From positions 311,925 to 375,924 of the forward strand of contig JBBDYQ010000025.1 of the NCBI GenBank assembly GCA_040901445.1: a stretch of DNA of 64,000 nucleotides. The letters run 5' to 3'. The notes under the pieces are model-generated. The model was not told where the DNA came from. It saw only the letters and a program-made list of their open reading frames with translations, and did no database searches. Position 1 is the stretch's first letter; every line of letters starts with the position of its first letter. Position numbers and translations under genes: made by a program. This document shows positions 12,373 to 15,086 of the stretch, piece by piece. The DNA comes from Thermoleophilaceae bacterium (GTDB lineage Bacteria; Actinomycetota; Thermoleophilia; Solirubrobacterales; Thermoleophilaceae).

Positions 12373-12734
12373 GGCTGCGCGCGCTCAGAGGCGCCATCAC
12401 CGTCGACGAGAACGAGGCCGGGGCCATCTTGACCGCCACGGAGGAGCTGCTGCGCGCGCTCATCGAGCGCAACGGGCTGGCCGCGGAGGACATGGTCAGC
12501 TGCCTGTTCACCTGCACGGAGGACCTCGACGCGGAGTTCCCCGCCGTTGCCGCCCGCAACATCGGCCTGTCGAGCGTGCCGCTGCTGTGCACGCGCGAGC
12601 TCGACGTGCCCGGCGCCCTTCCGCGCGTGATCCGGGTGATGCTCCACTGCTACGCCGATCCGGACACTCCCGCGCAGCACGTCTACCTGCGGGAGGCGGT
12701 CACGCTGCGCAAAGATCTGGGGGGAGCGCAATGA
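12369..12734 (+). CDS. aroH: Monofunctional chorismate mutase, AroH type
   Basis: Converts chorismate to prephenate for Phe and Tyr synthesis. 121 residues, the size of the Bacillus subtilis AroH trimer type. Seen: RALRGAITVDENEA at the start with the active-site Arg, CTRELDV with the active-site Cys/Glu region, IRVMLH with the second Arg, and HVYLREAVTLRKDL with the active-site Tyr. It overlaps rluB and the aminotransferase gene by 4 bp each and heads the aromatic block. Confidence 0.95.
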   Translation: MRLRALRGAITVDENEAGAILTATEELLRALIERNGLAAEDMVSCLFTCTEDLDAEFPAVAARNIGLSSVPLLCTRELDVPGALPRVIRVMLHCYADPDTPAQHVYLREAVTLRKDLGGAQ

Positions 12735-13813
12735 GCATCGAGACCAACTCCCGAGTGGGCGAGATCCCGGTCTACCCGGCAGCGGCCACCTATGCCTTCG
12801 ACGGCGACCTGGTGAAGCTCGCCTCCAACGAGACGCCCTGGGCGCCGCACCCGGCGGTGCTCGAGGCGGTGCAGCGCGCCTCCGCCAACCTCAACCGCTA
12901 TCCGGACCCCACCGCCGCCGCGCTGCGCGCCGGCATCGCCGAGCGCACCGGCCTGCCGGCCGCCAGGGTCACGGTGGGCAACGGCTCCTGCGAGATCCTG
13001 CTCGCGGCCGCGGAGGCCATGCTCGAGCCGGGCGCGGAGATCGTGTACGCCTGGCCGAGCTTCTCCATGTACCCGCACCTCGCGGCCATGACGGGCGCCA
13101 CGCCCATCACCGTGGCGCTGGACTCCGAGGACAGGCACGATCTCGCGGCGATGGCGCGCGAGGTCACGGTGGCCACGCGCATCCTCATCGTCTGCAACCC
13201 CAACAACCCCACGGCCACGGCCATCGGCGTGGAGGCGCTCGACGCCTTTGTCGCGGAGCTGCCGCGGCACGTGCTCGTGATCGTGGACGAGGCCTATGTC
13301 GAGTTCAACACCCTCCAGGGCGACCCCGATGCCTCGCTCGCCCTGCTGGAGCGTCACCCCAACGTGGTGCTGCTGCGCACCTTCTCGAAGGTCTACGGGC
13401 TCTGCGGCCTGCGGGTGGGCTACGCGCTGGGCTCGGAGGACTTCAAGCAGGCCTGTGACCGCGTGCGCCAGCCCTTCAGCGTGAACATGCTCGCCCAGGC
13501 GGCCGCCGCCGAGGCGCTGCTGCACACCGACGAGGTGGAGAGCCGCGTGGAGCGAACGGTGGTGGAGAGGGTGCATCTGGATTCCGCGCTCGCCGAGCGC
13601 GGACTGGCCACCACCGAGGGCCAGGCCAACTTCTCCTGGGTCGACCTGGGCGAGCACGACGAGACGGCCGTCATGCGCGGACTGGGCGAGCGCGGCGTGA
13701 TCGTCCGCGCCGGCGCCGACCTGGGCGGCCCGGGGCGGATCCGCGTGACGTATGGCACCCGCGCGGAGAACGACCGCTTCCTCGCGGCGCTCGACGCCAC
13801 GTTGCGCCCGTGA
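12731..13813 (+). CDS. HisC-like aminotransferase, probably aromatic
   Basis: Fold-type I PLP aminotransferase of the histidinol-phosphate family, 360 residues. KLASNETPWAPHP near 28-40, CNPNNPTATAIG near 155-166, DEAYVEF and the PLP lysine segment RTFSKVYGLCGLRVGY are clear. Sequence alone suggests histidinol-phosphate aminotransferase. Its position, coupled to aroH and upstream of DAHP synthase and tyrA, suggests the phenylalanine/tyrosine aminotransferase (Pat) role known for this family in actinobacteria. No other his gene is in the window. Either activity, or both, is possible. Confidence 0.85.
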   Translation: MSIETNSRVGEIPVYPAAATYAFDGDLVKLASNETPWAPHPAVLEAVQRASANLNRYPDPTAAALRAGIAERTGLPAARVTVGNGSCEILLAAAEAMLEPGAEIVYAWPSFSMYPHLAAMTGATPITVALDSEDRHDLAAMAREVTVATRILIVCNPNNPTATAIGVEALDAFVAELPRHVLVIVDEAYVEFNTLQGDPDASLALLERHPNVVLLRTFSKVYGLCGLRVGYALGSEDFKQACDRVRQPFSVNMLAQAAAAEALLHTDEVESRVERTVVERVHLDSALAERGLATTEGQANFSWVDLGEHDETAVMRGLGERGVIVRAGADLGGPGRIRVTYGTRAENDRFLAALDATLRP

Positions 13814-14003
13814 TACAACCTCGGTGATGAACCGCCTGGGCACGCACATCTCCGCGCCGCGTGCCTACGCGTATTCCTGGCGATTTATCTAGGCGTCCGG
13901 TACCCACGGGCCCTAAGGGACCGCCTGCGCGGGATCGCGCTCGACCGGACGCCGTTCGTACTCGTCGTAGGATCGTGATCGCCGCGTAGAAAGGTTCATC
14001 AAG
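13814..14003 (+). promoter_or_regulatory. Candidate aromatic amino acid attenuator region ahead of DAHP synthase
   Basis: 190-bp leader. It contains a TACAAC box (13814-13819), the leader peptide at 13827-13892, and two nested pairings I could verify: GGCACGC 13839-13845 with GCGTGCC 13859-13865, inside the leader ORF; and GGCGTCCGGT 13892-13901 with ACCGGACGCC 13944-13953, whose first arm starts on the last base of the leader stop codon. Stalling on the aromatic codons would free the second arm set. AGAAAGG at 13988-13994 is the ribosome site of aroF. No U-tract terminator is visible, so termination may be Rho-dependent or control may be translational. Confidence 0.6.
13827..13892 (+). CDS. 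Putative aromatic leader peptide of the DAHP synthase gene
   Basis: 21-codon ORF from ATG to TAG, ending AYAYSWRFI: Tyr14, Tyr16, Trp18 and Phe20, four aromatic residues in seven and all three aromatic amino acids. TAT and TTT codons are used although this genome strongly prefers C-ending codons. It lies directly upstream of a DAHP synthase gene, the first committed step of the pathway. Ribosome-mediated attenuation of a DAHP synthase gene is reported in Corynebacterium. A GTG at 13824 is in frame. A weak -10-like box ends 7 nt before the ATG; no Shine-Dalgarno is seen. Confidence 0.65.
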   Translation: MNRLGTHISAPRAYAYSWRFI

Positions 14004-15086
14004 ATGTCGCTCAGCCCGCCCCGACAACTCGACCAGGTCCGTGACCAGCGGATCGAGCGCGTGGTGCCGCTCGTCACGCCCGCCCTCATCCTCCACGAGC
14101 TGCCCCTCACCGACGAGCAGGCCGAGGTGGTGCTGCGCAGCCGCTCCGAGGTGGCCCGCATCCTCAACGGGGAGGACGACCGCCTGCTCGCCGTCGTGGG
14201 CCCGTGCAGCGTGCACGACGTGAAGGCGGCCTCCGAGTACGCCCGGCTCCTGAGCGCCAAGGCCGCCGCGCTGTCTGACGAGCTGTGCGTGGTCATGCGC
14301 GTCTACTTCGAGAAGCCGCGCACCACCACCGGCTGGAAGGGCCTCATCAACGACCCGCACCTGGACCAGAGCGGCGACGTGAACGAGGGCCTGCGCATGG
14401 CCCGCAGGCTGCTGCTCGAGGTGCTCGGGCTCGGCCTGCCCGTGGGCTGCGAGTTCCTCGACCCGATCATCCCGCAGTACATCTCCGACACGGTCACGTG
14501 GGGAGCAATCGGCGCCCGCACCACCGAGAGCCAGATCCACCGCCAGCTCGCCTCCGGCCTGTCGATGCCGGTCGGCTTCAAGAACCGCACCGACGGCAAT
14601 GTCGGGGTCGCGGTCGATGCCGTCCGCGCGGCCGCGGTGCCGCACGCGTTCTCGGGCATCGATCCCACCGGCACGCCGGCGATCCTGCACACCAGGGGCA
14701 ACACCGACTGCCACATCATCCTGCGCGGCGGGCGGGGCGCACCCAACTACTCCAACGGCGCGCTGCTCGACGCGCTCGCCAAGCTGCGGGCCGCCGGGCT
14801 GCCCGAGCGCGTGGTCATCGACGCGTCGCACGACAACAGCGGCAAGGACCACGAGCGCCAGCCCGCCGTGGTGGCGGACCTCGCCGCGCAGGTGGCCGAC
14901 GGCCACCGCACGCTCGTGGGCGTGATGCTGGAGTCGTTCCTCGTGGCGGGGAGCCAGGAGCCGGGCCCGCGGGCGTCGCTCACACATGGCCAGTCGATCA
15001 CGGACGCCTGCATGTCCTGGGACACCACCGTCGAGGTGCTCGACCGGCTCGCGGGCGCGGTGCGGGCGCGGCGCGAGGGCGCTTGA
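14004..15086 (+). CDS. aroF: 3-deoxy-7-phosphoheptulonate (DAHP) synthase, class I alpha
   Basis: Condenses phosphoenolpyruvate and erythrose 4-phosphate, the entry step to chorismate. 360 residues, close to Escherichia coli AroF/G/H. Seen: VGPCSVHD (metal Cys), RVYFEKPRTTTGWKGLINDP, IGARTTESQ, GFKNRTDGN and DASHDNSGKD (metal His). Many actinobacteria use the unrelated class II enzyme, so a class I alpha enzyme is notable. These enzymes are usually feedback-inhibited by one aromatic amino acid; which one cannot be read here. AGAAAGG precedes the ATG by 9 nt. An aromatic leader peptide lies upstream. Confidence 0.96.
   Translation: MSLSPPRQLDQVRDQRIERVVPLVTPALILHELPLTDEQAEVVLRSRSEVARILNGEDDRLLAVVGPCSVHDVKAASEYARLLSAKAAALSDELCVVMRVYFEKPRTTTGWKGLINDPHLDQSGDVNEGLRMARRLLLEVLGLGLPVGCEFLDPIIPQYISDTVTWGAIGARTTESQIHRQLASGLSMPVGFKNRTDGNVGVAVDAVRAAAVPHAFSGIDPTGTPAILHTRGNTDCHIILRGGRGAPNYSNGALLDALAKLRAAGLPERVVIDASHDNSGKDHERQPAVVADLAAQVADGHRTLVGVMLESFLVAGSQEPGPRASLTHGQSITDACMSWDTTVEVLDRLAGAVRARREGA

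Follow-up and report, generated by a model that had tools for sequence, protein, structure and literature searches.

A conserved aromatic leader element ahead of DAHP synthase genes in an actinobacterial order, probably acting by attenuation

Here, we describe a short leader element directly upstream of the DAHP synthase gene aroF in the window, by which we mean the whole 64,000-nucleotide stretch of DNA analyzed. The element is very likely an attenuation leader reading aromatic amino acids and, judging from its codons, would very probably let a stalled ribosome sense a shortage of any of Tyr, Trp and Phe. If this holds, a single sensor would serve the three aromatic amino acids together where their synthesis begins, a step that the well-known systems control with separate repressors or with isoenzymes sensitive to feedback. 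The element is conserved as a single copy over much of the order and stays attached across a swap of DAHP synthase class.

Results

A leader ORF with aromatic codons lies between hisC and aroF

Direct reading of the sequence between the hisC stop codon (13811–13813) and the aroF start revealed a 21-codon ORF running from the ATG at 13827 to a TAG at 13890–13892, with Tyr, Tyr, Trp and Phe near its end (Table 1). The original prediction, which proposed an aromatic ATG–TAG frame of this length directly before aroF, is thus borne out. The genes follow one another as chorismate mutase (PF07736), hisC-type aminotransferase (whose true start is probably 3′ of 12587), leader, aroF, tyrA, aroA, cytidylate kinase and EngA-type GTPase. 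As these genes run on one strand, the leader is internal to the run, with its own predicted promoter at the hisC end. The genome also carries a second DAHP synthase gene, of class I-beta (G000:C4:63128-63886); the leader core occurs only once in the genome, at the aroF of the window.

Table 1 Features of the leader region and its flanking genes in the window.
Feature	Position	Strand	Basis or remark
hisC-type aminotransferase, next gene 5′	12587..13813	+	TIGR01141 294 bits, over cut-off
−35-like hexamer TCGACG, 17 nt before −10	13791..13796	+	predicted; register from 31 aligned relatives
Extended −10 TGATACAAC, overlaps hisC stop	13811..13819	+	ends 7 nt before leader ATG
Leader ORF, product MNRLGTHISAPRAYAYSWRFI followed by stop	13827-13892	+	aromatic C-terminus conserved across order
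Small leader stem, 5′ arm (partner 13859-13865)	13839..13845	+	7-bp pairing in window
B, CTACGCG over Ala-Tyr-Ala codons	13865..13871	+	7-bp perfect complement of 13983-13989
Core TGGCGATTTATCTAG, W-R-F-I-stop	13878..13892	+	near-invariant at nucleotide level
C arm of conserved hairpin, begins on last base of stop codon	13892..13901	+	
D arm of conserved hairpin	13944..13953	+	pairing and covariation in 73 sequences
E, CGCGTAG, directly before Shine-Dalgarno AAAGG	13983..13989	+	complement of B
Probable aroF Shine-Dalgarno AAAGG	13990..13994	+	sequence
aroF, class I-alpha DAHP synthase, regulated gene	14004..15086	+	TIGR00034 aroFGH 478 bits vs cut-off 173; PF00793

The leader is conserved across the order

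An exact-pattern search with the core TGGCGATTTANNTAGGCG over 399 genomes of the class recovered one copy per genome in 118, of which 117 belong to the order of the window and 1 lies outside it; the reversed pattern, searched as a control in the same genomes, gave 0 matches. In all 124 distinct copies, the gene directly 3′ of the leader encodes a DAHP synthase, assigned to class I-alpha in 46 cases, class I-beta in 72 and short I-beta in 6; the automatic rule failed for these last six, one of which (L199, from the same genome as L018) was confirmed by profile while the other five were assigned from sequence or its position. Where a genome lacks a class I-alpha aroF, the leader precedes a class I-beta gene (TIGR01361). 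Phe, Trp and Tyr codons occur together among the last codons of 123 of the 124 leaders, a count in which only Tyr is an independent observation, since the search pattern itself prescribes W, R and F. The same co-occurrence holds in leaders found without the core pattern, and in most relatives with a class I-alpha aroF a short ORF closes with an aromatic cluster that leads into W-R-F-(S/I/T)-stop. The original prediction had inferred a single leader sensing all three aromatic tRNAs, and the codon content of the family would fit such a reading.

A covariance model search of 296 genomes of the phylum picked up the element in 8 genomes that belong to the order, along with 2 marginal matches outside it. 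In other orders of the class, a comparable leader was absent from most of 20 sampled DAHP synthase upstream regions, a sample that includes one region (L275) from the order of the window. Within this sample, a loose criterion of 4 aromatics in 9 codons was passed by a forward ORF in L260 and L261. In L262 and L263 it was passed by an ORF read the opposite way, and in L262 that is the strand of the gene itself. Rfam gave 0 matches at the gathering threshold in the window.

Because it is conserved across the order, the leader is far beyond chance. That it might be a chance short ORF without function gained no supporting point from the comparison with relatives; it is contradicted by both conservation and covariation, is refuted by the former, and retains practically no probability. 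Comparison of DAHP synthase upstream regions in relatives, the check proposed along with the original prediction, was carried out and passed, as the relatives carry a conserved aromatic short ORF and a covarying stem.

The core and the Tyr codons before it show unusual codon choice

The TAT and TTT codons of the leader had been described as rare, and this is correct: in the family's DAHP synthase genes, Tyr is encoded by TAT at 1.5% of its positions and Phe by TTT at 3.2%. Over the ten codons that precede the core, TAT accounts for 79 of 153 Tyr codons (52%; Fisher p about 1e-36, from counts that ignore shared ancestry), and GC3 of the other codons of this stretch is 0.83. This over-use is consistent with selection of codons that respond to the supply of charged tRNA, and may partly serve the pairing with E described below.

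A relaxed search that left the choice of Arg codon, Phe codon and stop open yielded 49 usable leaders, in which CGA and TTT were used in 49/49 and TAG in 48/49. In one locus, L116, the stop TAG reads CAG and the leader extends by a few codons, with the hairpin retained. The invariance of CGA and TTT at the nucleotide level speaks for a core that works at the RNA level or through a nascent arrest peptide, WRF(S/I/T)-stop, and not via charged tRNA levels. So does the distribution of CGA, which makes up 9.5% of Arg codons in genes but none (0 of 109) of the CGN codons for Arg over the ten positions upstream of the core. However, the aromatic positions upstream of the core swap among Y, F and W yet stay aromatic, so codon reading fits better than a fixed arrest sequence, and we regard action through the core itself as improbable.

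A conserved hairpin begins on the leader stop codon

The original prediction placed one arm of a perfect 10-bp pairing on the leader stop codon, and this C:D pairing is present in the window. The 62-nt hairpin has a folding energy of −35.1 kcal/mol (z = −2.6). Perfect 10-bp inverted repeats with a 25–60 nt loop occur at 31 positions in the 64 kb, or ~0.09 expected per 190 nt, so that the repeat in the window alone is suggestive. Across 73 sequences, 98.2% of C:D cells were paired compared with 35–43% in slid controls, a percentage favored by the picking of D arms by complementarity. The covariation measures are the better evidence: double-side changes were found in 26 cells versus 8.9 in shuffles, confined to 2 of the 10 pairs, and the covariation score was 0.218 versus 0.148 (0/500), both measures being inflated by shared ancestry. 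In 63 of 76 loci, the downstream RNA has C:D as its minimum free energy structure, and RNAalifold by subgroup returned it as the sole stem stable across groups. The C arm begins 14 nt after the first base of the TGG Trp codon. The 7-bp stem proposed within the leader is likewise present in the window, but by eye it recurs in only a subset of relatives, and is thus not a defining part of the element. Shine-Dalgarno switching by the C:D state alone was considered and rejected, as predicted accessibility changed little (0.50 vs 0.46).

The aromatic codons may pair beside the Shine-Dalgarno site

When the leaders were compared with the sequence from D to the start codon, a complementarity emerged between the aromatic codons (B) and a segment (E) that usually abuts, rather than covers, the Shine-Dalgarno site. 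When each B was scored against its own region and those of all other loci, own regions were favored with z = −6.0 (n = 112 loci) and, within two sequence groups and restricted to the 45 nt that immediately precede the start codon, z = −4.7, a value reached by 0 of 10000 permutations. Controls further upstream, inside the gene or with other leader segments gave z from −0.6 to +1.2. With one representative per cluster, z was −4.4 (81 clusters), −3.1 (55) and −3.0 (40), while the control leader segment stayed near −1 and the gene interior near 0. These nominal values are optimistic because of residual within-cluster ancestry and the number of pairings looked at, B:E having been found after several other pairings were tried and being to that extent post hoc. 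Helices of −9 kcal/mol or below were found in only 37 of the 112 loci; in strong helices, E ends a median of 18 nt before the start codon. Examples are CGCTACGCCTGG:CCAGGCGTAGTG (L233), CTGGTCCT:AGGACCAG (L227) and CCTATTTCTGG:CCGGAAGTAGG (L146), and in L014 the helix lies over the Shine-Dalgarno site itself (GCTGGACCT:AGGTTCAGC).

Masking B to mimic a stalled ribosome raised the predicted Shine-Dalgarno accessibility slightly, from 0.41 to 0.47 (p = 0.001; 25 loci up, 8 down), and an early-leader footprint mask had no effect on it. In the window copy (L001), predicted accessibility was unchanged on stalling. The free minimum of the window fold is −81.3 kcal/mol and has neither C:D nor B:E, compared with −75.0 with C:D forced and −72.6 with both; GGCGAT at 13879–13884 offers an alternative pair with ATCGCC at 13978–13983. 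The window's own copy thus supports B:E weakly and, as folding does not favor the pairing there, the mechanism rests on the family and not on the window copy. A separate 9-bp perfect complementarity in the window links the leader start codon region (13825–13833) with the aroF Shine-Dalgarno region (13993–14001); this type of pairing showed no enrichment in the family.

From these features we infer ribosome stalling, a direction for the switch and an action on translation, as follows. The promoter at the hisC end would yield an mRNA starting at or near the leader ATG. A shortage of any of the three charged tRNAs would stall the ribosome on the aromatic codons, over B, leaving E free and aroF on. 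Without shortage, the ribosome would reach the TAG and leave; C:D would then fold, and the freed B would pair with E beside the Shine-Dalgarno site, limiting aroF translation.

Translation is favored over termination as the off-switch

No intrinsic terminator was found in the window, as the original prediction had stated, and the relatives show no conserved T-run: runs of at least 4 occur in just 15 of 78 loci, and their position varies. D with its downstream segment was rejected as a classical terminator (mean −14.3 vs −15.2 kcal/mol shuffled), and the alternation of terminator and antiterminator that characterizes the trp-type attenuator is not found here. The original prediction had left the off-switch to either Rho or translation. 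Of the two, translation is now favored because the aromatic codons show, at the level of the family, complementarity to the sequence beside the Shine-Dalgarno site, and Rho is the main rival; that the switch works mainly on translation through B:E is, on the sequence evidence, somewhat the better supposition.

Under Rho-dependent attenuation, a ribosome at the stop codon would block C, the C-rich leader and loop would lie open, and Rho would terminate before the gene, while stalling on the aromatic codons would let C:D form like an antiterminator. The distance from the Trp codon to C suits this scheme: by its estimated footprint, a ribosome at the stop would cover most of C, and one stalled at any of the aromatic codons would leave C largely free. 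The leader and the C–D loop are indeed C-rich (C/G 1.47 and 1.35, vs 0.88–0.96 in flanking genes), and betaproteobacterial aroF leaders share, by eye, the spacing from TGG to the antiterminator arm and then have a real U-tract terminator. However, D has no conserved alternative partner downstream, the scheme leaves B:E at the Shine-Dalgarno region unexplained, and the match of the genome to the rho model is below cut-off (190 vs 509 bits). We therefore consider Rho attenuation unlikely, though a serious contender. The best Rho match in the genome (G000:C25:268860-269915) covers model positions 4–266 of 415 over about 1056 bases, and is possibly a Rho with an insert.

A simpler arrangement, in which C:D itself halts RNA polymerase and a stalled ribosome keeps it unfolded, would suit a hairpin that starts on the stop codon and so often forms the minimum free energy fold. 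Yet no T-run follows D, and stalling at Tyr or Trp would leave C uncovered, despite the presence of Tyr in nearly every leader (123/124); this one-hairpin arrangement is quite improbable.

A predicted promoter would make the leader mRNA nearly leaderless

Alignment of 31 relatives on TGnTACAAn gave the consensus TYGAC-17-TGnTACAAn, with TGnTACAAn 9–22 nt before the leader start; TAnnnT-like motifs lie nearby in others. The corresponding window promoter is TCGACG-17-TACAAC, whose −35-like hexamer scores below the threshold of a generic promoter scan. As the predicted −10 ends 7 nt before the ATG, the leader mRNA is likely leaderless or nearly so, with the start codon at or near its 5′ end. Leaderless leader-peptide mRNAs have been reported in Streptomyces lividans (PMC8079986). 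A second promoter between D and aroF (TAGGAT, TACGAT and similar) was considered, but is partly explained by E complementing TAT/TAC codons, as in TCCTATTT:AAGTAGGA.

Discussion

The element combines two marks of an attenuation leader, namely a predicted short ORF with end-product codons upstream of a biosynthetic gene (123/124) and a conserved RNA structure, C:D, placed relative to the control codons. A LEU-like opposition of control codons to the Shine-Dalgarno region gives a signal in the family (z of −3 to −6) and is weak in the window copy. The element offers a case in which translational attenuation that needs no terminator could be tested.

The leader type is known, and the variant described here is new. 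The closest described system is aroR, the leader of the aroF operon in C. glutamicum (Neshat et al. 2014, as cited in PMC11802643 and PMC4046766), also an actinobacterial leader peptide before a DAHP synthase gene that is thought to use ribosome stalling. As summarized in PMC11802643, aroR contains Phe-Tyr-Phe and responds to limitation of Phe and not Tyr; unlike aroR so described, the present element conserves Trp together with Phe and Tyr, an invariant core and the C:D hairpin, with no terminator. A literature search made largely outside subscription journals found no published description of the element, and for the phenylalanine and tyrosine operons a survey of attenuators in actinobacteria reported no conserved RNA structures (PMC1262725).

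In the LEU element of actinobacterial leuA, the leader codon run pairs with the Shine-Dalgarno region and a pseudoknot is present (Seliverstov et al. 2005, PMC1262725). Both elements lack a terminator, and the one here would likewise set control codons against the Shine-Dalgarno region, in an outer stem enclosing further structure; they differ in amino acids and gene, and in place of the pseudoknot the element here has an inner hairpin with near-invariant unpaired nucleotides. The mycobacterial leaderless poly-Cys ORFs (Canestrari et al. 2020, as described in PMC13236596) are amino-acid responsive and called translation attenuation; by that description they are leaderless short ORFs, as the leader here is likely to be, but serve cysteine operons. 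The uORFC-13-1 motif of Acholeplasma (PMC8632094) is likewise a short ORF with Phe before aroF, in another phylum, with a terminator and Phe only. Betaproteobacterial aroF leaders (L058, L066: MSAKFYFYFFWYLRPLADREG) resemble the element in preceding class I-alpha genes and in the spacing from Trp codon to arm, but by eye have a classical antiterminator and U-tract terminator. Phe/Tyr/Trp-rich leaders with U-tract terminators precede betaproteobacterial class I-alpha aroF in L058, L061, L066, L068, L074, L075, L100 and others, with no Rfam match in the loci tested.

At slightly short of even confidence, we propose that the element kept its position as the enzyme under its control was swapped between two different DAHP synthase classes, and that this goes together with an order-wide sensor of three aromatic amino acids whose codons form a stem against the Shine-Dalgarno region, and with an invariant core. 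In L010, L012, L013, L015 and L122, the start of the class I-alpha aroF product (ATGATCATGGAGATGAAGGAG and similar; MIMEMKE / MIIGMQE) resembles the class I-beta start MMIVMKEG, as if a class I-alpha gene had taken over the position of a class I-beta gene downstream of the same leader.

In other Actinomycetota relatives, the common part is only an aromatic, often W-R-F-like, cluster. Five such loci (L026, L030, L033, L077 and L078) have aromatic leaders before aroF, for example MTQAFYWFTRPAP and MNRWYWRYEPAP, some with terminator-like hairpins.
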